A program made the position numbers and the translations under genes. The notes under the pieces were generated by a model. It did no database searches and was not told the origin of the DNA. It worked only from the letters and a program-made list of their open reading frames with translations. A stretch of 64,000 bases of DNA from Pseudomonadota bacterium (GTDB lineage Bacteria; Bdellovibrionota; UBA1018), in NCBI GenBank assembly GCA_027485695.1, contig JAIXQO010000001.1:62001-126000 (forward strand), written 5' to 3'. This document shows, piece by piece, positions 4,873 to 28,212 of this stretch (within the stretch, counting starts at the first letter, position 1; every line of letters begins with the position of its first letter).

Positions 4873-4881
4873 TCGATTAAC

Positions 4882-9330: not shown

Positions 9331-9343
9331 CCTGTATCCTCGT

Positions 9344-10459: not shown

Positions 10460-10468
10460 CTTAAAACC

Positions 10469-11884
10469 TTGGGCGATGATCTAGTCATGTCGTTTCTCCC
10501 TCGTGATTTCCCGAAATCACTCGAAAAAGAAGCCGAAATGGTCCACGCTTGGGCACGCAAGTTCGCCGAAGACGTTCTCATTCCGCGCGCGAGTCAGATC
10601 GATCAAGAAGTTTGGGACAGTTCAACCAAGATTCCGTCGGATTGGATTGAAAAAGCGAACGATGAAGGTTTGTTCGATGCTTGGATTCCACGCGCGTTCG
10701 GTGGACGGGGTTATTCTCCCTGGAGCTACATGATTGCTAGCCAGGTCTGGAGCGAAGCCTGTCTGGGGTTCACGAACATCATGGGGGCACATTACTTCGC
10801 GATCACGTTGCTCTCGTGCGGGATGGAGATTCCACTTCTAGAAAAAGCCTGCCGCCGGGTCGTCGAAGGAAGAAAAAATCGCCGCCCTTACTTATTGGCC
10901 GGTGCGATTACCGAACCCGATGCCGGATCCGACTTGGAGGACACTGATCTTATTCGAGTCGCGAAGATTCGTACCAAGATCACCATTCAAGGCGATACGG
11001 CCATTATTCAAGGCGGCAAAATATTCATCTCAAATGCCACCTGGGCATCTGCGTTCGCGGTGGCGTCCTATGAAGACCTGAAACGTCCCCATCAAACCGC
11101 GACGATCGCTTGGGTCGAAGCGAATCAGCCGGGACTGTCCGTTGGAAAGATCGAAGAAAAACTTGGACAATCAGCCTGTCCGGCATCTGAGGTCCGATTC
11201 GATTCTGTTGAAATACCTATTGATCAACTCGCGCTCTACTCCGGACATTTCTCAATCCCAAAAGACTACCAAGACTACTGTGAGCTTCTTCTTGACGAAG
11301 TTCTCGGCAACTCACGTCTCGGAGTCGCCATCATGGCTGCCGGAGTTTCTCGTGCGATTCGCAGGGCCCTGACTCCTTACGCGAACCAGTGGAAAGACGA
11401 ATGGAAATTTGCTCGGTTCGGAGAAATCCTTAAAAACGACGAGATCCTGAACATACTCGCCGTTGAGGCCAATCGACGTCAGTGGAAGAACGGACCTCAA
11501 GCTGAAACACAACGGGGTGCGGGACTCTGGTTGGTGCAGAATCTTCCAACCTCACTACTCAAAAAACTCTTCAGCCAACTTCCTCCCCGAAAACTTCGCG
11601 ATAAGAAACTCAAGCAGTGGCGACAAGAGAAGCCTCTTGAGAAAACCATGTATTGGGGTTCACTTCTCAAAGCAGGTATGAGCGACCTCTTGATGAATAG
11701 CTTGGACAACGCGCGGGTTCTTGCAGGAGCGGAAGTCTGGAACGATCATTCGCTACCACTCGAGAAGTGGACCCGCGATGCCAAACTTCTTCAAATCTAC
11801 GAAGGCACCAATGCGCTCAACGTCATTCACGTCGCCAAAGCGAGCGGCGCATTGGGTTCGAGGAAACTTTATGAACTGGAATGA
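10469..11884 (+). CDS. Acyl-CoA dehydrogenase family protein
   Basis: AGAITEPDAGSDLEDTDL; C-terminal DARVLAGAEVWND...LLQIYEGTNALNV typical of ACADs. Confidence 0.85.
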   Translation: MGDDLVMSFLPRDFPKSLEKEAEMVHAWARKFAEDVLIPRASQIDQEVWDSSTKIPSDWIEKANDEGLFDAWIPRAFGGRGYSPWSYMIASQVWSEACLGFTNIMGAHYFAITLLSCGMEIPLLEKACRRVVEGRKNRRPYLLAGAITEPDAGSDLEDTDLIRVAKIRTKITIQGDTAIIQGGKIFISNATWASAFAVASYEDLKRPHQTATIAWVEANQPGLSVGKIEEKLGQSACPASEVRFDSVEIPIDQLALYSGHFSIPKDYQDYCELLLDEVLGNSRLGVAIMAAGVSRAIRRALTPYANQWKDEWKFARFGEILKNDEILNILAVEANRRQWKNGPQAETQRGAGLWLVQNLPTSLLKKLFSQLPPRKLRDKKLKQWRQEKPLEKTMYWGSLLKAGMSDLLMNSLDNARVLAGAEVWNDHSLPLEKWTRDAKLLQIYEGTNALNVIHVAKASGALGSRKLYELE

Positions 11885-12683
11885 AGTTCAAGTAGAGGTA
11901 CGCAACGCTGCTCTATCTTGGTTGAACCGTAGCTCGCCTCGCATTTCGGAAGCTCGAGACTTCATTGTGCCTGAATTCAAAAACGCCAGCTTCTCAGTAT
12001 TTATCGAAGAAGTGGCTCGTCGGGATGCGGCTCTCGCCTTCGACGTCGGGCATTTACTTCTACGCGACGAACCGAGCTCTCAGACCGATCGTGAACCTTG
12101 GTTGATTCATTTTCCGTCGGAACGACGACTGAGTTTCACCTCTCGTCGCATTCATTCGCTGAATGACGCCACTTCAGGTCGGCCGGTTCCTGGATTTCCC
12201 AACCACCGAATCCATTTCGGAGAAAAAACGGGCGATTCAAGCGTTCCGGAACTCTCCGTATTTCTGTTTTGGGCTTCTTGGCTATCGGGAATTCTCGCGC
12301 AAATCGCAGCCGAGACTTCTGCATACGCTGAACAGCGATATCAAGGTGGACGCCTCATCCAGGACTGGTCTGAACATCGACTGAAATTGGATCACCTCTG
12401 CTCCGAGATCCTCGGTCACTTGCTTGCGCTCGACCAGATCCGCTCGGCACCGGAAATAATGTCGGAACCGCTCCAAGCCTTGACGTTCCGTCTCGCTCAT
12501 CGAGCAGAAGCGCTTGCATCCGACGCTCTGTCTCTCTTTGGTGGCGCTGGTTACATGCGCGAATATCCAATCGCCGAGCGGTTCGCCTGTCTCACTTGTT
12601 TTGTTCCGACATTGAGGAGCGATCCGTTGCTTTCAAAAATTCCAGAATCTGCTTACCGACGCATGAATCGTCGTTCGACTTAG
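11871..12683 (+). CDS. Degenerate/partner acyl-CoA dehydrogenase-like subunit (270 aa)
   Basis: ATG at 11871 in frame with ORF end 12683 and overlapping the upstream ACAD stop; C-terminal ACAD signature ALSLFGGAGYMREYPIAERF. Confidence 0.7.
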   Translation: MNWNEVQVEVRNAALSWLNRSSPRISEARDFIVPEFKNASFSVFIEEVARRDAALAFDVGHLLLRDEPSSQTDREPWLIHFPSERRLSFTSRRIHSLNDATSGRPVPGFPNHRIHFGEKTGDSSVPELSVFLFWASWLSGILAQIAAETSAYAEQRYQGGRLIQDWSEHRLKLDHLCSEILGHLLALDQIRSAPEIMSEPLQALTFRLAHRAEALASDALSLFGGAGYMREYPIAERFACLTCFVPTLRSDPLLSKIPESAYRRMNRRST

Positions 12684-14869
12684 AGGATCTCGACCGTTCC
12701 TTGGCTTCCGTCGATGCGGACGCGCATTCCATTTTTGTAAGTCGTGCATGCGCCAATGCAATGAGCGACTGCGGGAAAACGCTGTTCACGTGCGGCAACG
12801 AATCCGTGCGCGAGTATTCCCCCGGTTTCGCAGATCATTCCACCCAAAATCGGGAACAATGGAGACCAGGATGGGTTCGGTCCAGAGGTCACTAGGATTT
12901 TGCCTTGAAGCTGCGACGGATTCACCGGGGGCGATTCCAGTACGATGACTTCTCCTTCGACCACTCCAGGACTCGCGCCAAATGAGTTCAAATCTTTACG
13001 ACTGATCTCCTGCGTGGGAGGAATTTGTGAATAGGGAGCAGATTTTGCGTAGAGCGCCCATACTCTTCGCCGTTCACGTACACGATCCCGGTAGTCTTCC
13101 CGACTAATGGAGCCACTACGCAGCTCTTGCACTTCTAGGAAAAAAACGTCGTTTTGGGAATCGAGTCGCCCCTCTTCGACGAAACGATTTCCCAAATTTA
13201 GCGCGATTTCACGAGATGGAACTAAGGCTTTCCCGGTGAGAAAGTGGAGTTCCTCATCGATCTCAAGAATCTGATGAAGTGACTCAGCAGATTGTTTTAG
13301 TTTCTTGGCATCAAATATATGGCCAGGAAACAACTGATCCCACTGAACCGGGGATGCCGAGGAGGGCACTTGAGCGGGCGATCCCGCTTGCGAGAACGAA
13401 CGATTCTCTCCTATGGAAGGGGCCGCAATATCCCAACTAAAGCGAATGTGTCCGTAATCAGACCAAAACTGATCGGCTTCGATCTCTCCACGCGCTAGGC
13501 GCGCATAGTCTTCGGAGAAGACGCGAGTACGGTTTCCTGCGTACTGACTGACCCATTTGAGCCAGTCGTCCCGACTCACGCCGATTGAATCGATGTATGC
13601 ACTTAAGCTTTTGAAAAGAATCTCCCGGCTCAAAAAGATAGCAACATCCGGCTCAAAAAAATCTTCGCTCATCGCGCGAAGCTTCTTAAAGGAAATCGAT
13701 TCGGATTCGTTTTCCGGATTCAAATCGGAGAGTGCTCGATCAAACCGGGATTTCCTCTCACCCCATTCTCCTCGAATTTTTCTAATGACCCGCTCGGTGA
13801 ATGCGGAGCCGATCCGAAACTTGAGCCAGGCACGAAAACGACTCGTACGAAAAAAGGCGATCGGAGATTGAAAAAAAATCGCCAGAAGTTCAGTCCAAGG
13901 AAATAGACTCGAGAACAAATGACTCGCCAGTAACTTCACGCCGTTTGGATAAGCAAACGCGTTTTTACGGTGGTAAATCCAGCCCGCGAACGAAATTGCA
14001 AACCGATCCGTACGCAGCGGGCGAATGCCGTAATATCGAGTGAGGGCCGCGAGATTCGGTCCGAGCTGCTCGGCAATCGCAGTCCATCCCAGCGGAGACA
14101 TTGCCTCAGGAAATCGCTCAATCGCTTCGTCACGCACATAGGCTTCATCAGACTCGATTCGGGAAACCCATTCTGCTTCATAAGTCGCAATCGGCCTACA
14201 CTGAACGATAACGAGTTGAGATCCGGTCCAAATCCACTCGACATCCACGGGTCGACCAAAATGCTGTTCTAGCTGCTCCAAGCAACGAGCGAGCGGAATC
14301 CCAAACTCGGGGCGCTGTCGAACGATCTCTGAGAGTGTCGCTGAATCGGGTGTGATCTCGCCATGAACCAGAGCCGCTAGGTGCCCATTCACCCACTCCA
14401 CTCTCCCTGCTTTGCTCCAAAGATTTTTCGGATCGCGAGAGAATGCGACGCCGCTTTGTTGAGCTTCAATGTACGGCTGAATGATGAAATGAATGCGTAG
14501 ATCGGTCCGATTTTTGAGTGCATCGGGCCTCGTACTAATCACTCGGCGAATAGACGAAGATAGATTGGATAATGAATCGACTCGGACGCTTTCAAAGAAA
14601 CCGGCATAAGATTGCGATGAACTATCCTCCAGATTCGCGCTCGATCGAACAATCCATGGCATCAAGGGCAGTGAACTGGTGTCAACACCCTCTCCACTAG
14701 ATTCCCAAAGTTCGAGTTCATTTGGATCCGCTGTCCAGGTTTCTGGAACCACGATATCAAGGCCAGCCAGGCGTGCGAGCTGCGTCGCTTTGCCGCCGTA
14801 TCTGCGTGCGTACTCTTGCTCAGAACTATCGGCGAGCGCCGGTATGCGAAAGAGGGATAAGTGAGCCAA
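12680..14869 (-). CDS. PEP-synthase/PPDK-like enzyme (ATP-grasp N-domain + phosphohistidine swivel domain, no PEP barrel)
   Basis: YGGKATQLARL, VRSSANLEDSSSQSYAGFFES, QSGVAFSRDP, QCRPI; C-terminal GASPGVVEGEVIVLES...CETGGILAHGFVAAREQRFPAV. Confidence 0.85.
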   Translation of the reverse strand: MAHLSLFRIPALADSSEQEYARRYGGKATQLARLAGLDIVVPETWTADPNELELWESSGEGVDTSSLPLMPWIVRSSANLEDSSSQSYAGFFESVRVDSLSNLSSSIRRVISTRPDALKNRTDLRIHFIIQPYIEAQQSGVAFSRDPKNLWSKAGRVEWVNGHLAALVHGEITPDSATLSEIVRQRPEFGIPLARCLEQLEQHFGRPVDVEWIWTGSQLVIVQCRPIATYEAEWVSRIESDEAYVRDEAIERFPEAMSPLGWTAIAEQLGPNLAALTRYYGIRPLRTDRFAISFAGWIYHRKNAFAYPNGVKLLASHLFSSLFPWTELLAIFFQSPIAFFRTSRFRAWLKFRIGSAFTERVIRKIRGEWGERKSRFDRALSDLNPENESESISFKKLRAMSEDFFEPDVAIFLSREILFKSLSAYIDSIGVSRDDWLKWVSQYAGNRTRVFSEDYARLARGEIEADQFWSDYGHIRFSWDIAAPSIGENRSFSQAGSPAQVPSSASPVQWDQLFPGHIFDAKKLKQSAESLHQILEIDEELHFLTGKALVPSREIALNLGNRFVEEGRLDSQNDVFFLEVQELRSGSISREDYRDRVRERRRVWALYAKSAPYSQIPPTQEISRKDLNSFGASPGVVEGEVIVLESPPVNPSQLQGKILVTSGPNPSWSPLFPILGGMICETGGILAHGFVAAREQRFPAVAHCIGACTTYKNGMRVRIDGSQGTVEIL

Positions 14870-17498
14870 GAGTGATACCTACGCGTTCCGCGAGTTGAAT
14901 GATTTCTTGAACCTTGTTTTTAGACAATGGTCCGAGACTGAACGGTTCCATTCTTCCATTAAGCCCGAGTGTGATCGTTTCCGCCAGACATGCGTAGAGT
15001 TGACCCGGCGGCAATGGCAGAATCGCCGTATGAATTCGGGTCGCCTCGGGTAGCTTGGCCAGTCCACCTTGAATACAACGAACGTCCGGTCGCTCGACGA
15101 ACACGCGAGGATCAACGTTCGATGGAACCGACAGATCCACGACCGTGGCACCCTGGGCCAGCACTTCGGGAGTGATGATTTGCTTAGCCGTATTGGTGCC
15201 GATCAAGACAGCGCTACACTCTTTCAAATCTTCGAGATTCGATGAGAATGTTACGTTCTCAGATCGCATCGAGGAGTTCGCAAAAATTTGCCCCGCCGCC
15301 GCTCTCATACGTACCAGCGAGTCTGGATCATCGCGCGTAATGAGGGTGAGCGCTTTTGCTTCATCGCCTAGCAATTGCGCGACGACGTTGCAAATATTTC
15401 CGGCCGCGCCGACGACCCCGACTCGAATATCACGCAGAGACACTCCTTTTTGAAAGAGTGCTTTTTTCAGCGCGAGGAATGCGAGACCCGCCGTTAGGCT
15501 GTTGCCCGTAGTGCAAGGAACGCCCATATCTTCTACGCCGTATCCGTTTTCGCTTACGATACTCGTGTACTGTCCAAGTCCGACGAGCTTTGAATCGAAA
15601 TCACGACTGAAATCTACCATGTCACGTACGAACCGAATCGCTTTGAAATCGCCGCTTCGCAGGCTGTTTTCAAAGAACTCAGTCGTCTTCATCGTCCCGA
15701 TCAAATACAACTTCACGCCGGCTCGCTTGCCGTCTTGACCCTCTTGGCCCCAGACGATTTGCTCATGATATACGACTGGCTGTTCGGATTCGGTGTATTT
15801 TCGGAGGAATCGCTTACGCTCTTCTACCGGAATGAAACCAAACATCGGGTCAATCAAAACCAGGTGATCTAAATCGATGGTATGAGATGAGAACGAGATC
15901 GTCGGTAGCCCTGCAGCTTCTTCCTCATCGATACGACGACAAACCGGAGACTGAAACTCCAAGTCGGCTTCGGTGAGCGGTTGTTTCCAAAGATGGCTCG
16001 TCATCCGCAGCATCTTGCGGTCTCGGATCCACCGGCAGACTTCGGATAGGGCATGGATGAACTGATCCGTATCGGCGTCTGAGATCCAAGCACTCGGCTC
16101 AATCCGAATCACTTCAGGTCGACTCAGCGTAACTGCAACTCGAACGTCGAATCTGTTTAAAAGCGCGCTCATCACGAGATAGCTCGCGTACCCGGCATCA
16201 TGAATCATGCGTAGGAGATTGGCAGTGGGCGTCTTCTTGCCAGTAAAATCGAATTCGATTCCTAGCAGAAATCCCTCGCCCCGAACTTCACGAATGAGCC
16301 CCGGGCATTCGCGCTGTATTTTTGCTACGCCTTCGGAAATTCGTTTCGAGAAGCGTTGTGCTTTTTCAAGGACTTCTCCTCGAGTGAGGATATTTAAGGT
16401 ACGAATCGCCAAGCGCGAGGCAACTTCATCTTCAGCAAAGGTCGAACTGTGAATAACGCTGAAATCTTCTTGGTAGTTCGGCTGCGAAACACACAACGCG
16501 CTGATTTTACCGAATCCGCCACCCAGGCTCTTGCCGAGTAGAAAATACTCCGGGGAAAAATCGAATTTGGAACCGGCTAAAAACGCGCCCGTACGAAAAG
16601 TACCCGTTTGAATTTCGTCCGAAATTCTCGGGATGCGTTTCTCGCCCACCGAGTTTCGAAGCCAGCTCACAAACGGTTTTGGCAAAGGCTCAACGCCCCC
16701 TTCGCCTTGGATCGGTTCGTAGATCACCGCCGCAATTCGGTTCCAACGACCCAGTTCGGCTGCCGGAGCTTTCAATTCGAAACGTTCCAAAATGTTCGCG
16801 TAAGATGGTTCGCTCCACGGATCGACGAACTCGACTGCGATCGCGGATTGGCTGTACATTTTCCGAAACGCCGGATTGCCTGTGACCTGAAGTGAGGCCG
16901 CAGTTTTCCCGTGATACGCGCCTCGAAGAGCGATCACGACCGGCTCGCTGTTTTTCACCTGCTCGATATAGGCCGCAATGACGGGTAGTTCAGGTGCGGT
17001 TGCGTTCCGAGCGCGGATTTTCCCATGCAAGGAGCCGAGCGTGAAAACATAGGACTCACGTCGATTATGATACTCAAATAGCGCGTGTTTGATCGCGGCT
17101 TCAACAGCCTCGGTCCCGGTACTACAGAGGTGTGTGTAGTAGTGTGGTGCCGAAGGCTGCTCCAGGCGGACCAATTCGTTGATCTTCTTGCCCAATATCC
17201 CGGAGTAGACACGAACGGAGGCTTGCGCATGCACCGGACACTTCTCATCTAAGAACTGCCTGAGTTCAGCAACGATCTCTGGGTGATGGTGGCCGAGTAG
17301 AGTTGAACCGTAGCCACCCAGGAGGTCGATAACGGAACGCTCGACTCCGCCATTGTCGACGTCGTTATAAAAGAGTCGATCACCCTCAGCGCGACTGTAG
17401 ATTTTATCGATTTTCAAAGTCTTGAGCAGGCGCGTGAGCTTGGGTTTCGCGTAGTCGCCGTATTCATCAACGAGTCGTTCGATGTTCGCATCCAACAT
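14826..17498 (-). CDS. Fusion: class III PLP aminotransferase + acyl-ACP reductase (AAR)-like domain
   Basis: N-domain: LCSTGTEAVEAAIKHA, DEIQTGTFRTG, LLGKSLGGGFGKISA; C-domain: GLGQYTSIVSENGYG, TTGNSLTAGLAFLALKKA, RVGVVGAAGNICN, GQLYACLAETITLGLNG, aligning by eye to cyanobacterial AAR (GLGGFTSIIFENFD, TTGNTHTAYVICRQV, VAVVGATGDIGS, MFACFAEAMLLEFEG). Confidence 0.88.
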   Translation of the reverse strand: MLDANIERLVDEYGDYAKPKLTRLLKTLKIDKIYSRAEGDRLFYNDVDNGGVERSVIDLLGGYGSTLLGHHHPEIVAELRQFLDEKCPVHAQASVRVYSGILGKKINELVRLEQPSAPHYYTHLCSTGTEAVEAAIKHALFEYHNRRESYVFTLGSLHGKIRARNATAPELPVIAAYIEQVKNSEPVVIALRGAYHGKTAASLQVTGNPAFRKMYSQSAIAVEFVDPWSEPSYANILERFELKAPAAELGRWNRIAAVIYEPIQGEGGVEPLPKPFVSWLRNSVGEKRIPRISDEIQTGTFRTGAFLAGSKFDFSPEYFLLGKSLGGGFGKISALCVSQPNYQEDFSVIHSSTFAEDEVASRLAIRTLNILTRGEVLEKAQRFSKRISEGVAKIQRECPGLIREVRGEGFLLGIEFDFTGKKTPTANLLRMIHDAGYASYLVMSALLNRFDVRVAVTLSRPEVIRIEPSAWISDADTDQFIHALSEVCRWIRDRKMLRMTSHLWKQPLTEADLEFQSPVCRRIDEEEAAGLPTISFSSHTIDLDHLVLIDPMFGFIPVEERKRFLRKYTESEQPVVYHEQIVWGQEGQDGKRAGVKLYLIGTMKTTEFFENSLRSGDFKAIRFVRDMVDFSRDFDSKLVGLGQYTSIVSENGYGVEDMGVPCTTGNSLTAGLAFLALKKALFQKGVSLRDIRVGVVGAAGNICNVVAQLLGDEAKALTLITRDDPDSLVRMRAAAGQIFANSSMRSENVTFSSNLEDLKECSAVLIGTNTAKQIITPEVLAQGATVVDLSVPSNVDPRVFVERPDVRCIQGGLAKLPEATRIHTAILPLPPGQLYACLAETITLGLNGRMEPFSLGPLSKNKVQEIIQLAERVGITLGSLIPLSHTGARR

Positions 17499-17554
17499 GG
17501 ATTTATTTTCCTTGCTCTCATGGCGGCCTGAGTTCAGGATCCGGGGTAAGGCGC

Positions 17555-19957
17555 ATGCAAAATATACAATTTTTAGGTGAAAATGACTTAAAAATCGAAC
17601 AAGCCGGAAACAAAGCCGCGCGGCTGCACGAGCTTACCCGCGCACTCGCCGACGGTAAAACCCGTGTTCCGCCAGGATTCGTGATTCCACACTCGGGAAT
17701 GGTCCTCGATGTTTCATTTAAGAGCGCACTCCAAGACGCCATCACTCACATCGGTGGATTCCCGGTGGCGGTTCGTTCCAGTTCCCGATTCGAAGACCTC
17801 GAGGGTGCGAGCTACGCCGGGCAATACGAGAGTTATCTGGAGGTAGCCTCGATAGAAGATGCGCTTGAGAAGATCAAACTCTGTTTCGATTCTGCACACA
17901 GTGCTCGTGTGCGAGCCTACGAGGCTTCTCGATCGACGGAAACCGACGGGTCCGAGGCGCTTTCGGTACTGGTGCAAAAGATGGTACCCGCAAAAAACGC
18001 GGGCGTACTTTTCACCATTCATCCGACGACCGGCCGAGAGGATCACTTTCTCATCGAGTGCGTTCAAGGGCTAGGCGAACGATTAGTGTCCGGGCATGCC
18101 ACTCCCACGTCTTACGTTTACGACTGGGCAAACGACGACATCGTTGAGCATACCTACACCCGCGACGGCGGGAAGCTTGAGCCACATGATTTAGCGACGC
18201 TTGCTCGTCTCGCGCTTGAAATCGAAGCACACTACGGACGCCCTCAAGATATTGAATGGGCTCAAGACCAAAACGGTGAGATCCGTATTCTCCAAGCTCG
18301 GCCGATCACTCGAATCTTCTGGCGCAAAGACGTTGATGAATTCACGAACGCCGACTTCAAAGACGGTGGCGTCTCCGCAAGAGTATGCACGCCAATCATG
18401 TATTCTCTCTATCGGCGATCGATTCAAAGCTCCATGCAAACGTATTTTCGCAAGATTCGTTTGCTACCAAAAAACTCTGAGCAAAAAACGTGGATTGATT
18501 TCTTCTACGGACGTCCCTATTGGAATGCTTCCGAAGTAAAACGACGGTTATCCAAAGTTCCAGGGTTCGATGAAAAAGCATTCGACGAAGATTTAGGCAT
18601 CCAAAAAGACTATTCACCGAACGGTCCAACGAGAATTCCGGAGAATCTCAAGACGATTCTCCCGGTGATCCCGACCGCCCTTGCGCTGTCGCGCGAGTAT
18701 GATCGACAATTGGAACTCACCCAAAATTACCGCGAGCCCTTCTTAAAAACCGAAGCATCGTTGAGAATTCGCCTTCGAGAACCTTTGCATTCGTTCGATG
18801 ACGAGTTTCGCCTCATGAATGAAATCATTGAATTTCAGGCACAAACGGAGTTCGATTACTTCACCACGATCTACAACAACTCCAATTTTCAGTCCGACTT
18901 CAAAAAATTACTTGGGTCAATTGAATCTCAGATCGGAAAGAAGCCCAACCTCGGAAAACTCGTTTCTGGACTTTCCGATATCAGCCACCTGAAGTCGCAA
19001 GAAGGTCTACTGACGCTGGTGCATGCACTCGGCACGGCGGACTATCAAAAATTTCGGGATCAATTCCTGAAGGAGTCCGGTTTTCACGCCGACGAAGAAC
19101 TCAATCTCCTTTGTCCACGTTGGGAAGAAGTCGGCGAGCAGATCGATCAAAGGGTCGTCGAACTATCAAAATCTGTTTCCTCACTTCGCGATCCCAAAGT
19201 AACCGCCCAAGTACAGCACGAGTCTTACCAGATAGAACGTCGATCAATCGTTGAACTCTTGAACAAGACGACGTTCCATCGATATGTGACGCGTCCTCGA
19301 TTCGAAAAAGCGCTCGATCGCTCTCGGCTCTATATGCGCCAACGTGAGGTGATGCGCGAGTACTCAACTCGCGCTTATGCGTTGGTTCGATTTGCGCTGA
19401 TACGCTTATCAGAAGTGCTGGTATCGTCCCGTATCATACGGGACGCCGGCGACATTTTTTTTCTGTATGCGGAAGAGCTCCAGAATCGTATTTGGGAAAA
19501 TGAAACGTCCCCAGAATTCGAGAGGCGACTTTATTTACGGAAGATTCGCTATCAAGGTTTGAGGAACCTCGTTCCACCCAATGAGTTGGGCGGCAAAGTA
19601 CGCCAGCGTTCAAATGTTACGCGGGCCGAAGGTGGGCAGTCCATTCGCGGACTCGGCTGTAGCCCTGGAAAAATTCGAGCACGCGCTCGAGTCGTGATGT
19701 CACTCGAAGAGGCCTACACCCTGAACTCAGACGAGATCTTAGTGACCCAGTTTACGGATCCAGGATGGACGCCCATTTTTGGAAAAATCGCGGGCGTGAT
19801 CACCGAGGTCGGGGGAATGCTCTCTCACGCCGCCGTGATTGGCCGTGAGTTTGGGATACCCGCGATCTTGAACCTTCCCGGAGCGAGAGAACTTCTTAAG
19901 ACCGGGCAAATGATTGAGATGGACGGGGAAACCGGAGAAATTACGATTCTCAGTTAG
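17555..19957 (+). CDS. PEP-synthase/PPDK-like enzyme (ATP-grasp N-domain + phosphohistidine swivel domain, no PEP barrel)
   Basis: AGNKAARLHEL, VRSSSRFEDLEGASYAGQYES, NAGVLFTIHP, ILQARPITRIFW; C-terminal GCSPGKIRARARVV...TEVGGMLSHAAVIGREFGIPAILNLPGA. Confidence 0.88.
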   Translation: MQNIQFLGENDLKIEQAGNKAARLHELTRALADGKTRVPPGFVIPHSGMVLDVSFKSALQDAITHIGGFPVAVRSSSRFEDLEGASYAGQYESYLEVASIEDALEKIKLCFDSAHSARVRAYEASRSTETDGSEALSVLVQKMVPAKNAGVLFTIHPTTGREDHFLIECVQGLGERLVSGHATPTSYVYDWANDDIVEHTYTRDGGKLEPHDLATLARLALEIEAHYGRPQDIEWAQDQNGEIRILQARPITRIFWRKDVDEFTNADFKDGGVSARVCTPIMYSLYRRSIQSSMQTYFRKIRLLPKNSEQKTWIDFFYGRPYWNASEVKRRLSKVPGFDEKAFDEDLGIQKDYSPNGPTRIPENLKTILPVIPTALALSREYDRQLELTQNYREPFLKTEASLRIRLREPLHSFDDEFRLMNEIIEFQAQTEFDYFTTIYNNSNFQSDFKKLLGSIESQIGKKPNLGKLVSGLSDISHLKSQEGLLTLVHALGTADYQKFRDQFLKESGFHADEELNLLCPRWEEVGEQIDQRVVELSKSVSSLRDPKVTAQVQHESYQIERRSIVELLNKTTFHRYVTRPRFEKALDRSRLYMRQREVMREYSTRAYALVRFALIRLSEVLVSSRIIRDAGDIFFLYAEELQNRIWENETSPEFERRLYLRKIRYQGLRNLVPPNELGGKVRQRSNVTRAEGGQSIRGLGCSPGKIRARARVVMSLEEAYTLNSDEILVTQFTDPGWTPIFGKIAGVITEVGGMLSHAAVIGREFGIPAILNLPGARELLKTGQMIEMDGETGEITILS

Positions 19958-20726
19958 ACACCGACAGACGAGTGCGAACTTCGTTCACGATCGATTCCGA
20001 TGAACGGCCATCAATTGGTACCTCGATCACTCGAGTACCTTGAGCCAACCCTAACATTCCTGAGATCTGTCGAATACCTGCCTGAAGTTTGAGTAACGTT
20101 TCGATGCCCTCGTGCGCCTCGGTCACGCCAGACTTATCTTGATTCTTGAGTCGCATGCGTTCTCGGATCGTGATCTCGCTACCGACAAGCAGCAGTATAT
20201 CTGTGGACGCACGACACCCATAGATTTGATAGAGTTTCCCCGCGAGTTCGACCGGAGGCTTGGAGAAAATCTCGACCATGTATTTGCCAAGACTTTCCAG
20301 ATTGCACCCAAGGTGTTCGCAACGCTCACTTAGTACGGGCAAGTACCGTTCGGGAACATGCTCTGCGCTCCATCCGGTCGATAGAAGTTTTAAATAGAAC
20401 CCTGAATAGACCACGCTATCGACGATCGGATCGCGTTCTCGAATGAGGGTCTGCGTTTTTCTTCCAAGATCTGACTCCAACAATTCGCTCTCGGCTGATC
20501 CAGCAAGGGTCATCGCGAGAAATAGTGCAACCGCCTTGGTTTTCACGTCACCGACTCGGTCGGCATGGTTGCCGAGGTCCTCTAATGCACGTGAAGCCTG
20601 AGCGCACGCGAAACCCGGCCCTGATTCGAAGTACTGCGGAGATCTGAGCGTAGGAAAATCTCCCAGGCTACTGAGTAGCGTAGTTTTTCCCGTGCCGTCC
20701 ACCCCACAGATTGAAATCACTCTCAT
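19950..20726 (-). CDS. P-loop nucleoside/thymidylate kinase-like protein
   Basis: N-terminal Walker A ISICGVDGTGKTTLLSSL; internal RERDPIVDSVVYSGFYLKLL. Confidence 0.75.
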   Translation of the reverse strand: MRVISICGVDGTGKTTLLSSLGDFPTLRSPQYFESGPGFACAQASRALEDLGNHADRVGDVKTKAVALFLAMTLAGSAESELLESDLGRKTQTLIRERDPIVDSVVYSGFYLKLLSTGWSAEHVPERYLPVLSERCEHLGCNLESLGKYMVEIFSKPPVELAGKLYQIYGCRASTDILLLVGSEITIRERMRLKNQDKSGVTEAHEGIETLLKLQAGIRQISGMLGLAQGTRVIEVPIDGRSSESIVNEVRTRLSVSN

Positions 20727-21520
20727 GACAAACTTCCTGAAGGAATCTCACCTCGAAAAAGGCCTAAACACGTATGATATGCGGTTTTTCCGCATTCTTC
20801 CCAGCGATCTGGAGAAATCCCCAGACAAAGGAGTCGTTCACGAAGTTTGCGATTGTGAAACGCCCAGGGTTTCTGAGTCAAATCGATTCGAGCGATCAGG
20901 AGCGCGGCTCGTGTCAAGTAAAGGTCACGAAAATCGACTTTGCGTACATTCTCCTGATAGATACCGAAGATCGTTTCGATTCCAGCTAAATGTCGGCGCT
21001 CATCTTTTTCGATGATTTCCACGAGTTTTACGAGCCTGGTGAGTCCATCTCGCTCGGCTAGTATTTTGAGCTCTCCATATACGTATTTAGAGAACACCTC
21101 ATAGAAATAGATCATCGCGAGCGCCGTCAGTGGATAGCGCTTGCCCGTTAACTCTGACGCTTGCGGGAGAAGCGCATCGTAGAATAGTCGAGACGCGAGT
21201 GAGCGACTCTTGCGTTCATAACCAAACGTTTGTTTCACGTAACCGCGCAAGAGGCGATGGTGACGATTCTCATCTTCTTGGTGAACTTTCAGGTAGTCGA
21301 ATACTACGGCTTGACTCTCCAGTGCGCGAACCACTGGGGACATGAATAACTCCTCCGAGGCTTCTGTTGAGGCAATGGAAGACAGGAGCTGTTTCCAAGC
21401 ATCGACCCGCTCGGGCGAAACCTGGAGAATCTCGTCGCGAAATGCATCCACCGGCTGGCATTCCAGCGCGGCTTTGGTTCCGTACTCCGTTAAGAGCTTT
21501 AGTTTTCTTTCGACTTCCAT
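20723..21520 (-). CDS. Ferritin-like (putative diiron) protein
   Basis: Two ExxH elements in helical context: VHQEDENRHHRLLRG and YFYEVFSKYVYGEL...IEKDERRHLAGIE; 4-bp overlap with next gene. Confidence 0.65.
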   Translation of the reverse strand: MEVERKLKLLTEYGTKAALECQPVDAFRDEILQVSPERVDAWKQLLSSIASTEASEELFMSPVVRALESQAVVFDYLKVHQEDENRHHRLLRGYVKQTFGYERKSRSLASRLFYDALLPQASELTGKRYPLTALAMIYFYEVFSKYVYGELKILAERDGLTRLVKLVEIIEKDERRHLAGIETIFGIYQENVRKVDFRDLYLTRAALLIARIDLTQKPWAFHNRKLRERLLCLGISPDRWEECGKTAYHTCLGLFRGEIPSGSLS

Positions 21521-21540
21521 TTAAACATTCTCCGTCGTTT

Positions 21541-22890
21541 CTACTCGAGTTCCATGAGGGCGCCTTGAACCGCAAGTTTCTCGCCTGTAGGTTTCAGCCA
21601 GCCGATTTTTAGTCTTAACCCAATGGAGATCGCCTGAATTGCATTGATGAGGGTTACCAGAGCGATCAGCAATGCTCCATGATCCTTACCGAGCGCACGG
21701 ATGCATTTCCACGGGAATATCCAACGAGAAAATGTGCTCGGTTTTCCTTTTCCAAGATAAATCTGGGCGCGAACGGCGCCGATATCCTCATCCTTAGCCC
21801 GCCATGCGGTGATGTAGGAGGCTTTCCAAAAATGAAATCGATCTGCCGGATCGGGACAAAGGCGAGAAAGCGCATAACACTTCTCTATTCTCGACAGAAC
21901 CAATGTCCGAAGCCAAATAATCGCCTCACCGTAGGCGATGCGAGCTTGAGATTTCGCAGAGATCGCTTCGCTTGATTCGGACTCAAGCGCCGAAATGAGC
22001 GATTGAATATCCTGACGCTGCTTGAGTACCGGAAATGCGGCTAGAACATAACCCAATGAGTTTCTGAATTTTTCGATCGCGTTCCATTCACGAATTCTTG
22101 CCATCAAATCGTCGACATTGATCGCCGGAAGTGCTTTTTGGAGGACCAAGAAAACATCACCGAGCTCCCGAGCTCCGATCTTGGCATCAGAAAGGTGGGC
22201 CGCGAGGTGGATCAGGAAATCGTCCCATCCCAATCTAAACGCGTCGACGTCTCCATAACGAAAAACGGACTTATTGGCCCAAACCCTCTCGAGAGGAGAA
22301 CGTTCAGAGCGGTGAGGCGAAAGTAAATCCCAATGGAGCCCCAAAACACAGGCACCATCCGGCAGATAGAATGGCGGCGAATGGTGTTTCTTGAAATCTA
22401 CGTCCGCGGATTTTCCAAAAATCGCCCGGGAACTTTGATAGCCGAGAGATTCGATGACTTGAACCGTTTTAAGCGCGTCCGACTTCTTGACCAAAAAATC
22501 GAAGTCGTTCATCCGTTTATAGCCTGGAAAACTCAAAAGTTCGTGCCCGATCACGCTCCCCTTGAGCACGATGCAGTCAATTTTTGCGATCGTCAGAGCT
22601 TGCACAAGAGCGGCAGCATGTAGTTCTCGATTTGCTTCGCGCTCCAACTCGCGTTTAGCGGCACGGGCGATCGGCGAAGGAACATCGTGTTCGCGATTCG
22701 CTTTTTTGAATGCGTGCGAGGCATTGACACGAAGTGAATTTCGTTCCACCAAATCCCAGAAGAAGAACCTCTCCACATCGCTCAAGTGATCGAAGTCTCT
22801 TAGGTGAAACTCCCGTGGATCCACGAGCGATAGCGCAAGTCTCGACACCTTTTGGATTTGTTCAAGTGTCTCGGGCTTGCGACGAATCAT
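21541..22890 (-). CDS. Nucleotidyltransferase-fold family protein (NTP_transf_5-like)
   Basis: IDCIVLKGSVIGHELLSFPGYKRMNDFDFLVKKSDALKTVQVIESLGY... and HHSPPFYLPDGACVLGLHWDLL; ATG at 22890 overlaps stop of upstream gene (ATGA), so the track start 22983 is probably too long. Confidence 0.7.
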   Translation of the reverse strand: MIRRKPETLEQIQKVSRLALSLVDPREFHLRDFDHLSDVERFFFWDLVERNSLRVNASHAFKKANREHDVPSPIARAAKRELEREANRELHAAALVQALTIAKIDCIVLKGSVIGHELLSFPGYKRMNDFDFLVKKSDALKTVQVIESLGYQSSRAIFGKSADVDFKKHHSPPFYLPDGACVLGLHWDLLSPHRSERSPLERVWANKSVFRYGDVDAFRLGWDDFLIHLAAHLSDAKIGARELGDVFLVLQKALPAINVDDLMARIREWNAIEKFRNSLGYVLAAFPVLKQRQDIQSLISALESESSEAISAKSQARIAYGEAIIWLRTLVLSRIEKCYALSRLCPDPADRFHFWKASYITAWRAKDEDIGAVRAQIYLGKGKPSTFSRWIFPWKCIRALGKDHGALLIALVTLINAIQAISIGLRLKIGWLKPTGEKLAVQGALMELE

Positions 22891-23540
22891 TGCGGCACCT
22901 GAAACGCTCTCCAAACGTTCTCGAACACTGTTTCCGGACTGTCCATCGCGGAAACTTTTGACCAGGACCAGCGATCTGCCCAATCCGACAGAATTGCTCC
23001 CGTCTTCTCATTAAGCTCCTCGAATTTTGATCGCGCGTTACTTTCTGATGCGAAGTCTGATTCATAGCCGCTGAGTTTGGTCTTTCGGGATTGAGCTGCC
23101 TTGGCATCCACCTCAAGTAGGACCGTTCGATCGGGAATCGCTAATGCCAATGCCGCTTGAAGCCTCGGGTCGTTTTCAGACTCGGGCTCTCGCGCGAGTT
23201 CGGACGCGATGTACTTGTACCAATAAGAATCAAAAAGCACGATCTCGGCGTTTGAATCACGAGCACGCAAAAAGGATTCACTCAAACAATGAAGCAGAAA
23301 ATAAGATCGAGACGACGAACTGAGGCATGCCAGATAGCTGTCGATCTGTTCTGGTTTCAAAGGAAAATTCTTGGATTCTAGGCGAATGAGATCCCAGATA
23401 CTAGCCACCCGAACCTGACGGCCCTGTGCGCGCCATCGCTCGGAGAGCGAGGATATGACGGTGGATTTTCCAGCGCCATCCGCGCCGGTTACGCAAAAGA
23501 ACATCGCGTCCCTCTCCTCTTTGAACGATTTCGTCTTCAC
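22887..23540 (-). CDS. P-loop thymidylate kinase-like protein
   Basis: MFFCVTGADGAGKSTVISSLSERWRAQGRQVRVA; likely internal start (23504). Confidence 0.75.
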   Translation of the reverse strand: MKTKSFKEERDAMFFCVTGADGAGKSTVISSLSERWRAQGRQVRVASIWDLIRLESKNFPLKPEQIDSYLACLSSSSRSYFLLHCLSESFLRARDSNAEIVLFDSYWYKYIASELAREPESENDPRLQAALALAIPDRTVLLEVDAKAAQSRKTKLSGYESDFASESNARSKFEELNEKTGAILSDWADRWSWSKVSAMDSPETVFENVWRAFQVPQ

Positions 23541-23620
23541 GAACTGGGGTGATTTTATCGTTCGTTTCCCTTTTGTTTTAAACTAATATTAAATCAAATA
23601 GAACCCTGGAATATAGACTG

Positions 23621-24331
23621 ATGCGCGCGCCAAAGGTCCTCCTGATAGACCTCGACAATACTCTGCTTGGATCACATAAGCGCCAGCTGCACTGGTCGTT
23701 CATACGGGCGTTCATCAGTGAGGCTCGGAATCGGGGTCTGGGATTTTGGTCTGCCTTGTCCTTGCTTCATATTCTCAAGAAAGAAACGACCCGTATCGGC
23801 TCTAGCCAGACCAATGTTGAGCGAGCTCTGCTGGCCATTCGCAGTCGCTATCCTGCGCAGTTTTTGGACGACCTATCCGTTCATACATTGATTCAAACAG
23901 TATTCACACGATGTCGCCCCCAGTTTTTCACGCTCCCACAAGCTCGACCGTTCCTCGACTGGGCTAAAAAAAGAGGCGATTTCCGAATGGTCCTGGCGAC
24001 CAATCCTATTTGGCCACTCGCGGTGGTCGAACTTCGACTCGCCTGGGGTGGGATATCAGGCGACGAATTCGAGTGGATCACCCATGGCGAGGTGATGCGT
24101 TCCGCTAAACCCTCGCTTGATTACTATCGGCAAACGATCACTCATCTCGGGGTGGATGCGAAAGACTGCCTCCTCATCGGAGATAGCGTCACCAAGGATT
24201 TGCCCGCCCATGAATTAGGCATTCCGGTATTTTTACTCGATACAAGAATACAAGAGGACCATCAAAAAGAAATTTACGTAGGTGACCTGCAGTCCCTGAT
24301 CACTCGACTCGATCGGGCAAAAAAAACATGA
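23621..24331 (+). CDS. HAD-superfamily hydrolase
   Basis: VLLIDLDNTLLGSH (DxDxT), MVLATNP, SAKPSLDYY, CLLIGDSVTKDLPA. Confidence 0.88.
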   Translation: MRAPKVLLIDLDNTLLGSHKRQLHWSFIRAFISEARNRGLGFWSALSLLHILKKETTRIGSSQTNVERALLAIRSRYPAQFLDDLSVHTLIQTVFTRCRPQFFTLPQARPFLDWAKKRGDFRMVLATNPIWPLAVVELRLAWGGISGDEFEWITHGEVMRSAKPSLDYYRQTITHLGVDAKDCLLIGDSVTKDLPAHELGIPVFLLDTRIQEDHQKEIYVGDLQSLITRLDRAKKT

Positions 24332-25251
24332 ACACTTATGTGATTCTGAACCAAGTCGCTCAGGCCGGAAAATCAGCCGAGACTTTCGATCGACTCAAAT
24401 CAAATCTACCTAAACATGAGCTTTTTGTGATTCGCTCCGCCGATGAGTGGAAAACTCTGCCTGCCTGGATTGAATCCAAAATGAGCGAACCGGCTCGATG
24501 GATCGTGGCCGGCGGAGATGGATCGGTCCACTCTGTTTTGAACCTACTTTATGCGAACGCAGAACAAAAAAAAATTCCCAGCGAACAGTGGCCGATTGGT
24601 CTCATCGCACTTGGCTCCTCGAACGACTATCATAAACGTCATTCGCACCGGATCTCAAACCTATTGAGAATCGATTTCGATCGAACGAGCCAACAAGAGT
24701 TACTTGAAGTCGAAATCACGAGCGGCAGCCAGATTCAAAAGCGCTACTCGTTCTTGAACGTGGGGGTAGGCATCACAGCCCAAGGTAACTGGATATTTAG
24801 TCATTCTCCGCTCATTCGCCAGATTAAATCGTGGTCCGTTCAATCGGCGATCCAGCTGGCTGCGCTGAGAGCATTCTTCTCCAAACCACACACTGAGGCG
24901 ACCATTTCACTCGACGAACTGCCTCCGCGTGCAATCTCGATCGCGAACTTGTCCGTATTTATGAATCCGCATTTTTCGGGTTCGTTTCGTTATCCCATTG
25001 CGCAGCCTCTAAACTCGGGCAAATTCGGTGTGGCCTGGGTCGAAGAAGCACCTCTCCATCGACTCACGCCGGTTTTTCTTGGCCTCATGCGAGGTCAGTT
25101 CACTCAATCAAACACCCGACATCTGGGTCTGCACCGAGAAATTCAAATTGCATTCTCGGCCTCTACGCCCGTTGAAATCGACGGAGAGCTCTGGGACGCG
25201 AACTCCATTCGAATTCGAATCGCTCCTCGAAAGGTCCTCGTATGCCTGTAA
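24328..25251 (+). CDS. Diacylglycerol kinase catalytic-domain / sphingosine-kinase-like lipid kinase
   Basis: VAGGDGSVHSVLN, LIALGSSNDYHK, FLNVGVGI, PVEIDGELW; ATGA overlap with HAD gene. Confidence 0.83.
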   Translation: MNTYVILNQVAQAGKSAETFDRLKSNLPKHELFVIRSADEWKTLPAWIESKMSEPARWIVAGGDGSVHSVLNLLYANAEQKKIPSEQWPIGLIALGSSNDYHKRHSHRISNLLRIDFDRTSQQELLEVEITSGSQIQKRYSFLNVGVGITAQGNWIFSHSPLIRQIKSWSVQSAIQLAALRAFFSKPHTEATISLDELPPRAISIANLSVFMNPHFSGSFRYPIAQPLNSGKFGVAWVEEAPLHRLTPVFLGLMRGQFTQSNTRHLGLHREIQIAFSASTPVEIDGELWDANSIRIRIAPRKVLVCL

Positions 25252-26270
25252 AAAATTCGCCCAAAGAAATTCGTGACATGCTCCAGTGGTTGGGCTCGCC
25301 CATGCGCTCCAAGAAGCAGGTGAACGGTGTGAACGAATCAGACGCCGAAATCCTCAAGATCAGTCCCTCCCGATGGATGGCGTTCAATGTAGACGGTATT
25401 TCTGAGGAAATCGAATACGGGCTCTACCGCGATCCCTATACGATGGGCTGGATCACCGTGCATGCGACGCTTTCGGACATCGCCGCATGCGGGTTCAAGC
25501 CAATCGGGTTTTTGTCGAGCGTGTTATTCAGTCGAAAGTTCACTTTGGAATCAAAAAAGCGCTTCCAAGCTGGGTTAAATGCCGCACTCAAACAGACGAA
25601 AACGCCGCTGCTGGGCGGCGATCACGGCGAATCTGCGCACGGAGTTTTTCATGGATTCGCAATCGCTGAGAGTAGCCAGAAACCGCTCCAACGGATCGGA
25701 ATCAAACCGGGAGACTTGATCGGTACCGTTGGGACTCTTGGAGTGGGACCAGCTCTCGGTTTCCGTTTTCTCACACAATCCCCTGAATCCTACTTTCCAG
25801 AATCGAACTTCAGGCCAATCGCCAAACTGACCGAAGGAATGCGACTGATCAAGCACGCTCACGCCGCAATGGATACCAGCGACGGTCTGGCCTCGGCTCT
25901 GCACACTTTATCGATCTTAAACGACCTCAGATTCGAACTGAATTTTGACCAGCTCCCTTATGACAAAAAAGCCCTGGAGTTTTGTTCCAAAATTCAGATC
26001 CCACGTGAGACCCTTATTTTCGGTGAACACGGGGACTACCAGCTCGTTTTTACCGCTAGTGTGGTGGAATTTGCGAAGATCCGAAAACTCGTCCCAGGCG
26101 TAACCTGCATCGGGAGAGTCCTCAAACGATCCGAAAAACAGCACCTGTTCCACACTGGGGACCAAAAAAAACCCTGGAACCCGGGCCACGTTGTGGAACT
26201 CAACAAAGATAATATGGAAAATATAAAAGCAGCATTCACGGATGTGGTAGAGTGGGCGCGAAGGATCTAG
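25242..26270 (+). CDS. AIR synthase-related / ThiL-like kinase
   Basis: TMGWITVHATLSDIAACGFKPIG, GGDHGESAHG, LGVGPALG, MDTSDGLASALHTLS, FGEHGDYQLVFT resemble ThiL motifs. Confidence 0.75.
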   Translation: MPVKNSPKEIRDMLQWLGSPMRSKKQVNGVNESDAEILKISPSRWMAFNVDGISEEIEYGLYRDPYTMGWITVHATLSDIAACGFKPIGFLSSVLFSRKFTLESKKRFQAGLNAALKQTKTPLLGGDHGESAHGVFHGFAIAESSQKPLQRIGIKPGDLIGTVGTLGVGPALGFRFLTQSPESYFPESNFRPIAKLTEGMRLIKHAHAAMDTSDGLASALHTLSILNDLRFELNFDQLPYDKKALEFCSKIQIPRETLIFGEHGDYQLVFTASVVEFAKIRKLVPGVTCIGRVLKRSEKQHLFHTGDQKKPWNPGHVVELNKDNMENIKAAFTDVVEWARRI

Positions 26271-26276
26271 CCAGGC

Positions 26277-27569
26277 ATGACGAACCCTAGCGGAAATTCT
26301 GAAAACTTCACTCTCCATGATTTTTATAAGATCAGTGGATCCACGCTCGAGGAGCGAGTCGCCCCGTTTTCAGACGTCATTCGTGATTACAACGCCAAAG
26401 GCTACACCATGTATTCTCGGGAGGTCATCGGATCTCCTGGACCGCGTGTTAGTGTCCGCGACCCTCTTACTGGCACTATCCGCGAAATGATCATGATGGG
26501 ATCCAACGACTATCTCGGGCTTTCCCATCACCCTTTGGTGAAGAATCGCGTGATCGAAACCGTTCAGAACAATGGTGTCGGCATGGGCGGTCCTCCGCTT
26601 TTGAACGGGATGAGTGAAACTCACCGAAAGCTCGAGCGCGCACTTGCTCGCCTCAAGTCCCAAGAAGACTCGTTGATTTTTGCAAGCGGGTTTCAAGCGA
26701 ACTTAGGTTGGACGAACGCACTCCTTCGAAGTGGCGACGTCGTGATTTTTGACGAACTCAATCACGCCAGCTTTTTTGATGGGCTGGCTGCCACTCGGGC
26801 TACCAGAAAAATTCGCGCTCACTCCTTCGCTCACAACGACTTGAGCGACCTCGAAGAAATGTTGAGACGCGCTCAAGAAAAACGCGGCGCTGACGGTCAA
26901 ATCTTCGTCATGGTCGAAGGCGTCTATTCGATGGATGGCGATCTCTGCCCACTTGCTCAGGTTTGCGACCTTTGCGAAAAATACGGCGCTACTCTCGTTG
27001 TCGATGATGCTCACGGCACCGGCGTGATCGGAGAACATGGCGGCGGCGCGTCCGACTATTACGGCGTCAGCGAACGCGTTGGCCTCTCGGTCGGTACTTT
27101 TAGCAAGACGTTTGGAGTGACGGGTGGATTCATCTCCGCAAGCTCCAAGGTTGTCGACTATCTACGGTTCTTCTCGCGATCCTATATTTTCTCTGCTCAC
27201 TTGCCGCAGTCGATCGCGGCAGCCGTACTCACGGGCTGTGAGATCATCCACGAGCAACCCGAACTCCGCCAAAAACTTCGAAACAACGTCGAGTACTTCG
27301 TGGAGGGACTACGCCGATTAGGGCTCGAAGTGAATTCAACCTCGGCGATCGTTCCAATCCGCACGCCACAGCCGATTGATCTACGCCTCCTCAATCGCGC
27401 GCTCCACGAGCGTGGTCTGTTCGTGAACCCGATCGAGTACCCTGCGGTCTCGTTATCAGAACAGCGAATTCGTGTGAGCCTCATGGCAACTCATACTCAG
27501 GCGGATCTCGACGAAGCGATTGGAATCATCCGCGACTGCGGACGAGAACACGGATTGATCGCCCGATAA
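26277..27569 (+). CDS. Alpha-oxoamine synthase (serine palmitoyltransferase / KBL / AONS-like)
   Basis: MMGSNDYLGLSHHP, VVDDAHGTGVIGEHG, SVGTFSKTFGVTGGFI (PLP Lys), SLMATHTQADLDEA. Confidence 0.88.
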   Translation: MTNPSGNSENFTLHDFYKISGSTLEERVAPFSDVIRDYNAKGYTMYSREVIGSPGPRVSVRDPLTGTIREMIMMGSNDYLGLSHHPLVKNRVIETVQNNGVGMGGPPLLNGMSETHRKLERALARLKSQEDSLIFASGFQANLGWTNALLRSGDVVIFDELNHASFFDGLAATRATRKIRAHSFAHNDLSDLEEMLRRAQEKRGADGQIFVMVEGVYSMDGDLCPLAQVCDLCEKYGATLVVDDAHGTGVIGEHGGGASDYYGVSERVGLSVGTFSKTFGVTGGFISASSKVVDYLRFFSRSYIFSAHLPQSIAAAVLTGCEIIHEQPELRQKLRNNVEYFVEGLRRLGLEVNSTSAIVPIRTPQPIDLRLLNRALHERGLFVNPIEYPAVSLSEQRIRVSLMATHTQADLDEAIGIIRDCGREHGLIAR

Positions 27570-27582: not shown

Positions 27583-28212
27583 TTATTTCACTTTTCCTTG
27601 AAGGTAGGCTGCCATCATCTCCGCCGTATTGCGGACATTGATTTTCGCCATGATGTTCGACCGATGGCTTTTGACGGTTTCGGATGAACACTTCAGAATA
27701 TTTGCGATCTCCCGACTTGTGTGACCTTTGGCGATCCACTCAAGTACCTCGTACTCTCTCGGTGTCAGAGAAGGACGAGTCGAGACTTGACTCAGTAATT
27801 TTTCGACGGCCGGATCCACATAAGGAATTCCGGTGTTATCGTGCGCAGCTTTGAAAATCGATCTTAGGTTCTCTACAGAGTGTGTTTTTTGCAGCAGTGC
27901 TTGCACTCGGTACTGAAGTACTTGTCTTAAGATCGCAGGATTATCACAATTCGTCAGCACGATGATCTTCAGTGCCGGCGCGATTTCCCGAATCATGCGA
28001 ATGATTTCTATGCCTGAAAAATCGGGAAGTCCCAGATCCAACACCAAAACATCCGGCATCCGTTTCTTGATCTCATCGAGCGCCTCATTCCCACTCCCAG
28101 TCTTTCTGAGATTGAATGGCTCTGGATGAGAGCTTCGTAGAACATATTCGACGCCCATTTGACAAATCGGATGGTCGTCGCACAGGAGAATATCTTTGAT
28201 GGGTTGTGACAT
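27583..28212 (-). CDS. NarL/FixJ-type response regulator (REC + LuxR HTH)
   Basis: LLCDDHPICQMG, VLVLDLGLPDFSG, LTPREYEVLEWIAKGHTSREIANILKCSSETVKSHRSNIMAKI. Confidence 0.93.
   Translation of the reverse strand: MSQPIKDILLCDDHPICQMGVEYVLRSSHPEPFNLRKTGSGNEALDEIKKRMPDVLVLDLGLPDFSGIEIIRMIREIAPALKIIVLTNCDNPAILRQVLQYRVQALLQKTHSVENLRSIFKAAHDNTGIPYVDPAVEKLLSQVSTRPSLTPREYEVLEWIAKGHTSREIANILKCSSETVKSHRSNIMAKINVRNTAEMMAAYLQGKVK

Follow-up and report, generated by a model that had tools for sequence, protein, structure and literature searches.

What does a bacterium assemble from a gene cluster that places a transaminase–reductase fusion among phosphotransfer ligases, lipid-type kinases and a sulfotransferase? 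This question is raised by a stretch of 64,000 nucleotides (the window; contig JAIXQO010000001.1 of assembly GCA_027485695.1, here G000:C1:62001-126000) from a 4.05-Mb Bdellovibrionota genome that is ~93% complete. The original prediction described ten contiguous genes at 12680–27569 as a candidate undescribed amino-lipid cluster. These coordinates stand, but the segment holds 11 open reading frames (ORFs) and its boundaries are too narrow, since homologues of the genes at 703–12683 accompany the cluster in other genomes; within the window, the cluster reaches from position 1, with cysN and cysC, to 27569. The left half, missed at that time, contributes a sulfotransferase, the supply of 3′-phosphoadenosine 5′-phosphosulfate (PAPS), two acyl-CoA dehydrogenase-like proteins, a desaturase, an MMPL/HpnN-like transporter and a phospholipase D (PLD)-like protein. 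The cluster is coherent, conserved and apparently undescribed, bringing tambjamine-tail chemistry into a sulfated, lipid-like setting, and the reading favoured here, with moderate confidence, is the biosynthesis of an exported, sulfated, fatty-amine-containing lipid.

The TamH-like fusion and the PigC-like proteins

The fusion (14826–17498, minus strand) consists of a class III transaminase (Aminotran_3, residues 35–487) and a thioester reductase domain resembling PigE and acyl-ACP reductase (AAR; ACP, acyl carrier protein) within residues 617–877. It keeps the pyridoxal phosphate-binding lysine (K323 in GKSLGGG), the nucleotide-binding motif GVVGAAG at 694 and the catalytic cysteine of the reductase (Cys837 in ACLAET), both the lysine and the cysteine being invariant in six Bdellovibrionota homologues. 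PigE is its best-named NCBIfam family (8.8e-97) and, together with CrmG (5dds), its nearest relative in the PDB (4ppm); the reductase part searched alone also retrieves PigE (7e-40) ahead of the long-chain acyl-ACP reductase (8e-12), the AAR-like domain scoring 45 against an AAR cut-off of 450. The order of the domains is, however, reversed in PigE, whereas the transaminase–reductase order of the fusion, along with its catalytic motifs, is that of PtTamH. TamH of the tambjamine pathway has been demonstrated to possess this architecture and to produce fatty amines in vitro (PMC9594044), acyl-ACP being required and C12-CoA not being accepted by PtTamH (PMC9594044). By analogy, the fusion would convert an acyl thioester to a fatty amine, and the route proposed earlier—from thioester via aldehyde to fatty amine, followed by ATP-driven conjugation—corresponds to the tail half of tambjamine synthesis (PMC9594044, PMC6667630).

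Concerning the conjugating enzymes, two proteins, designated here PigC_A (17555–19957, plus strand, ~800 residues) and PigC_B (12680–14869, minus strand, with an uncertain TTG start), belong to the superfamily of PigC, RedH and rifampin phosphotransferase (Rph). Both match only PPDK_N and the mobile domain of phosphoenolpyruvate (PEP) utilizers, with no match to a PEP barrel in either, as previously noticed. The phosphotransfer histidine is retained in TEVGGMLSH of PigC_A, with a histidine in CETGGILAH of PigC_B, the two proteins sharing only 29% identity in their terminal domains. The PigC/RedH models give 265–267 bits, not reaching their equivalog cut-offs of 1300–1350, and are slightly outscored on the ligases by the PRK06241-type PEP-synthase models. 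The prodigiosin enzymes PigE and PigC (NF053554, NF052631) stand, respectively, for the best-named family of the fusion and for one of the families of the ligases, but the scores lie far under the equivalog cut-offs (325 of 850 and 265 of 1300). The closest solved relatives of PigC_A are the PEP synthases and, above all, Rph (PDB 5FBS, 5HV1), with which it shares the ATP-binding domain and the swivelling histidine domain; in contrast to Rph, it is found outside a resistance-gene context and with a strict TamH partner. In the tambjamine pathway, the partner of TamH, i.e. TamQ, is likewise a PigC-type ligase (PMC6667630).

It should be pointed out that proteins of the PigC_B type too short to accommodate the ATP-binding half occur at L037:10920-11999 (with L035:3-443), L041:1474-3075 and L044:16792-18393, the alignment revealing the missing half having been done for the protein of genome G271 alone. 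If these short forms are real, the swivel histidine must receive its phosphate from another protein.

Co-occurrence and the probable sulfation module

The survey covered 291 Bdellovibrionota genomes, both the fusion and PigC_A having been searched at E ≤ 1e-60. The fusion was found in 27 genomes and PigC_A in 28, with all 27 TamH genomes possessing PigC_A (Fisher 3e-37, a value inflated by shared ancestry, the genomes not being independent); among the 264 TamH-negative genomes, PigC_A is present only in G255, the assembly of which is 82% complete. Around the pair, about 16–20 gene families of the window recur in three distant genomes (G271, G147 and G161), although in varying order. All three share the α-oxoamine synthase (AOS), the DAGK-, ThiL- and thymidylate kinase (TMK)-like kinases, the haloacid dehalogenase (HAD) phosphatase and the NTP_transf_5 protein, as well as the sulfotransferase, the acyl-CoA dehydrogenase-like genes, the PLD-like and MMPL-like proteins and the small protein of 8572–9330; two of the three also have the diiron and the secreted proteins. 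Two further genomes, G189 and G198, contain fragments of the cluster on short contigs. The diiron protein is confined to five of the 291 genomes, every one of them TamH-positive. The genes are therefore strongly co-conserved rather than scattered, as the original prediction demanded, and their co-location is far beyond chance. In the tree of the fusion, the clusters with the accessory set of the window type occupy separate branches, interleaved with TamH sequences having other neighbours, so that the accessory set appears to be exchangeable or to have been lost repeatedly. A tblastn search with the window genes revealed no PigC_A near a TamH-like Streptomyces record.

The sulfotransferase (9344–10459, minus strand) exhibits the PAPS loop PRSGTT, and its family is present in 7 of the 291 genomes, six of them TamH-positive. 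The genome's only CysD and adenosine 5′-phosphosulfate (APS) kinase flank the cluster: cysD (C1:60471-61448, NCBIfam) precedes cysN directly left of the window; cysN, encoding sulfate adenylyltransferase subunit 1, starts at G000:C1:61448 and ends inside, its 3′ part covering positions 1–710 on the plus strand (45% identity to cysN of G147; an L153 ORF overlapping window positions 3–710 by 100%); and the APS kinase (cysC) follows at 703–1452 on the minus strand. The genes cysD-cysN-cysC lie beside the cluster in G147, too, while in G161 cysD and cysNC are embedded in the run AOS-DAGK-SDR-cysD-cysNC-PigC_A-PLD (SDR, short-chain dehydrogenase/reductase). A single APS kinase and a single full-strength CysD-type match are encoded by each of the six genomes; in five of them, with the exception of G271, both adjoin the sulfotransferase or the cluster. 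Sulfite reductase was detected in none of these six genomes but in 11 of 14 control genomes, the absences in the 72%-complete assemblies of G189 and G198 carrying little weight singly. The APS kinase is present in all seven sulfotransferase genomes compared with 41 of the 291 overall (hypergeometric about 7e-7). Based on this adjacency, the absence of sulfite reductase and the constant presence of APS kinase, the PAPS most likely serves sulfation, its assimilatory use being rejected for the lack of sulfite reductase in the six genomes. The PAPS-dependent sulfotransferase as a member of such a cluster is new here.

Two observations may be added on this module. A sulfotransferase of the same family is found at L191:1198-2361 in G169:C148, a genome from the window's own family (87% complete) in which TamH was not detected. 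In the window, DUF2061, a predicted membrane domain, is fused N-terminally to the APS kinase of 703–1452.

The AOS, the diiron protein and the remaining genes

The AOS (26277–27569, plus strand) is an intact protein with a single 430-residue AOS domain and no fused carrier protein. A second AOS is encoded at C1:148777, matching the serine palmitoyltransferase (SPT) family NF047600 with 482.8 bits compared with 317.7 bits for that of the cluster, both values being below the SPT cut-off. The two paralogues share 36% identity, and the cluster AOS reads GVGMGGPPLLNG at the position where the SPT-like one has GTGFTGSRFLNG; as judged from the sequences, the cluster AOS is thus a second AOS, distinct from the SPT-like one. 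The latter stands beside a GNAT-like protein of 382 residues (L194:6437-8971; G000:C1:147436-149970), a candidate locus for ordinary bacterial sphingolipids. The formation of a 3-keto base from acyl-CoA and an amino acid, suggested earlier, is plausible with an intact AOS, a ketoreductase candidate of the SDR type being encoded inside the clusters of G147 and G161.

The ferritin-like diiron protein (20723–21520, minus strand) matches the profile of the R2-like ligand-binding oxidases (R2lox) and exhibits a four-helix core with the invariant ligand set E...ExxH...E...ExxH, i.e. two glutamates and two ExxH motifs, in agreement with the earlier assignment. Its predicted fold (a model from four sequences, pLDDT 85) corresponds best to R2lox (TM 0.69, E 6e-5), followed by the aldehyde-deformylating oxygenases (ADO; TM about 0.60/0.70). 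The diiron fold and ligands are shared with R2lox (PDB 3EE4, 4HR0) and with cyanobacterial ADO, but the fold alignments show no more than 14–20% identity. As to its role, the natural guess would be that it oxidises a lipid chain by two electrons.

The other domain assignments made from the sequence also hold, the TMK likeness being weak. A P-loop kinase-like protein (19950–20726, minus; Walker A GVDGTGKT) has homologues in G147, G161, G189 and G198; it is accompanied by the NTP_transf_5 nucleotidyltransferase-fold protein (21541–22983, minus), the true start of which is probably 3′ of the TTG, and by a thymidylate-kinase-like P-loop kinase (22887–23540, minus; domain match). On the plus strand follow a HAD phosphatase (23621–24331; domain match), a DAGK/sphingosine-kinase-like lipid kinase (24328–25251; DAGK_cat) and a ThiL-like kinase of the AIRS superfamily (25242–26270; 159.9 bits vs the ThiL cut-off of 184).

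On the left side, a membrane-bound, DesB-like fatty acid desaturase (1553–2611, plus) has its cluster counterpart in a desaturase in G147 and in a fatty acid hydroxylase in G271. The putative lipid exporter—an MMPL/HpnN-type transporter of the resistance-nodulation-division type (2608–4872, plus) with weak HpnN and HAE3 matches—is assigned to MMPL in 3 of 6 homologues and kept in both cluster types. The PLD-like protein (6678–8414, minus), weakly similar to cardiolipin synthase, is kept in G271, G147 and G161, as is the acyl-CoA dehydrogenase-like enzyme (10469–11884, plus), the role of which may be analogous to that of TamT; a small protein with a signal-like N-terminal segment (8572–9330, plus) is also kept in the cluster. 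The second acyl-CoA dehydrogenase-like subunit (11721–12683, plus), with a borderline match of its C-terminal domain and an uncertain start codon, overlaps the preceding ORF and has counterparts at the same place in G271 (an ORF of 199 residues) and G161 (a homologous ORF). There is also a secreted protein (4882–6597, minus), the structure model of which (pLDDT 46) is too poor to use; members of its family are common in the phylum, occurring in 59 of the 291 genomes, and the six top-scoring ones are linked to TamH. Two TamH-negative genomes have a member and an APS kinase no more than about 3 kb apart (C1:16019 and C1:13051, respectively, in G031; C162:7805 and C162:5968 in G239).

With regard to gene packing, the 4-bp overlaps noticed before are real at 20723–20726 and 24328–24331, while the long ORF overlaps at 14826–14869, 22887–22983 and 11721–11884 hang on TTG starts and probably reflect miscalled start sites. 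The two divergent promoters proposed earlier were not recovered: the consensus scan yielded one weak site in 23541–23620 and none in 17499–17554, with fewer sites overall than in shuffled sequences, the promoter and terminator scans being uninformative. Rfam gave no match anywhere in the window, and PADLOC only weak P-loop and PLD domain matches, so that a defence system is not indicated. A LuxR-type regulator adjoins the cluster at 27583–28212.

The candidate product and its alternatives

Taken together, the following pathway may be proposed. The desaturase, the two acyl-CoA dehydrogenase-like proteins or all three would introduce unsaturation into an activated fatty acyl chain, and the TamH-like fusion, with all catalytic residues of its in vitro-tested homologue kept, would reduce the thioester to the aldehyde and transaminate it to the fatty amine. 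PigC_A, perhaps with PigC_B, would then activate a partner with ATP via the phospho-histidine swivel domain and join it to the amine. The best candidate for this partner is an amino-ketone or amino-alcohol unit supplied by the AOS (which some relatives would combine with a ketoreductase), on which the diiron oxidase, the kinases, the HAD phosphatase and the nucleotidyltransferase-like and PLD-like proteins may act. The product would be sulfated by the sulfotransferase—in accordance with its family and well supported by the genome context—with PAPS from CysD/CysN/CysC, and the MMPL/HpnN-like transporter would carry it to the envelope. The lipid-type neighbours, i.e. the MMPL/HpnN, DAGK and PLD/cardiolipin synthase-like proteins, back this reading.

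It is also backed by the sister clusters of other TamH/PigC_A genomes without the AOS and sulfotransferase, containing a variable mix of a PSD-like decarboxylase, UbiA-like and CarS-like proteins and P450, as well as a DUF3419 protein with a methyltransferase; on a planctomycete contig (L051), TamH and two PigC-like proteins are found with PSD-like and UbiA-like genes. These neighbours seem to point to lipid head-group chemistry. Tentatively, Bdellovibrionota and some planctomycetes may make a class of envelope lipids not yet described, with TamH and PigC_A as its common core, an amine-linked chain installed via a phospho-histidine ligase and the remainder exchangeable, either a sulfated AOS-type or a CarS-/UbiA-/PSD-like module.

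As for the individual sister loci, a second type of TamH cluster (L147:8927-18118, L148, L149 and L150/L192) carries UbiA-like, CarS-like and PigC_B-like genes, joined in some cases by P450 and in G144 by a PSD-like gene; this mix is reminiscent of archaeal lipid head-group assembly. At L039:12907-15319, a methyltransferase stands beside TamH, an arrangement seen in four genomes, with DUF3419 (BtaA-like) and PSD-like proteins in three; this set could build a betaine- or amine-type head group.

Several points weigh against the sulfated-lipid reading. The end product and the coupling partner of PigC_A are candidates only. Many TamH/PigC_A clusters lack both the AOS and the sulfotransferase; the core coupling therefore cannot depend on either gene everywhere, and the partner joined to the amine may be something other than the AOS unit. 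PigC_B is divergent, and since its counterpart in G271 is devoid of the ATP-binding half in the alignment, its phosphorylation might depend on another protein. No TamA-like ANL-ACP fusion was found among the genome's five AMP-binding proteins, though PtTamH required acyl-ACP, and at the survey threshold the fusion was not found in other sampled genomes of the window's own family.

Among the alternatives, the one that survives best, although unlikely, is a diffusible specialised metabolite as the product, such as an antibiotic, a pigment or a signal, in place of an envelope lipid. The core enzymes have relatives in the synthesis of tambjamines, which are antibiotics, the distribution is patchy and the LuxR-type regulator is adjacent. 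Against this stand the lipid-type enzymes and the MMPL/HpnN-like transporter; genes typical of drug efflux or resistance were not recognised. A membrane lipid is preferred mainly because of the PSD-, UbiA- and CarS-like genes in the sister clusters.

Still more doubtful is a sphingolipid-type pathway, in which the AOS would be an SPT and the DAGK-like protein would phosphorylate sphingosine, an N-linked chain or head group being the contribution of TamH and PigC. The AOS family, the SDRs of the relatives and the lipid kinase are indeed shared with bacterial sphingolipid synthesis, and the epimerase in the cluster of G271 also speaks for it, but the genome's much better SPT match, with its GNAT-like neighbour, lies elsewhere, the AOS motif differs, an amine-forming fusion is present, and TamH/PigC clusters without an AOS exist. 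It is improbable that the TamH/PigC, AOS/kinase and sulfotransferase modules represent two or three separate pathways adjoining by chance: most TamH genomes do have the pair without the other modules, yet in three distant genomes the whole combination comes back in another gene order, and no diiron gene was found without TamH.

An aldehyde/hydrocarbon pathway as in cyanobacteria, in which a fatty aldehyde from the AAR-like domain would be deformylated to an alkane by the ferritin-like protein, is very improbable, for despite the AAR homology and the match to ADO structures, R2lox fits the diiron protein better, the latter accompanies only 5 of the 27 TamH genomes, and the AAR-like domain, instead of standing alone, is fused to an intact transaminase, which should aminate the aldehyde in place. 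Finally, a tambjamine/prodiginine pathway condensing a fatty amine with the bipyrrole MBC (4-methoxy-2,2′-bipyrrole-5-carbaldehyde) is largely refuted, because the five AMP-binding ORFs of this ~93% complete genome are all acyl- or acetate-CoA ligase-like (FadD-, Acs- and FadD11-like) with no prolyl-AMP ligase, and neither a fused ACP-AOS (PigH) nor genes for pyrrole or MBC synthesis lie in the cluster, even though analogues of TamH, PigC and TamT sit together.

The cluster thus shares with the tail module of tambjamine YP1 from Pseudoalteromonas tunicata (TamA/TamT/TamH/TamQ; PMC9594044, PMC6667630) the order and motifs of the fusion, the PigC-type ligase and an acyl-CoA dehydrogenase-like gene, but it is without the MBC/pyrrole genes, no TamA having been found either, and adds the AOS, several kinases, the diiron oxidase, the sulfotransferase with its PAPS supply and the lipid-transport genes. 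In the literature searched, with subscription journals mostly outside its scope, no TamH/PigC cluster without bipyrrole genes was found, in line with its earlier description as undescribed, and TamH-type formation of fatty amines was known from one pathway, that of tambjamine. The likely sulfate group offers a direct handle on the product, by 35S labelling and by sulfate loss in mass spectrometry. TamH and a PigC-type ligase, always together, are present in about 9% of the sampled Bdellovibrionota; this spread, along with the absence of a prolyl-AMP ligase from the tested genome, suggests that coupling of this kind extends beyond the pigments in which it was first discovered, and membrane lipids of predatory bacteria may be among its products.

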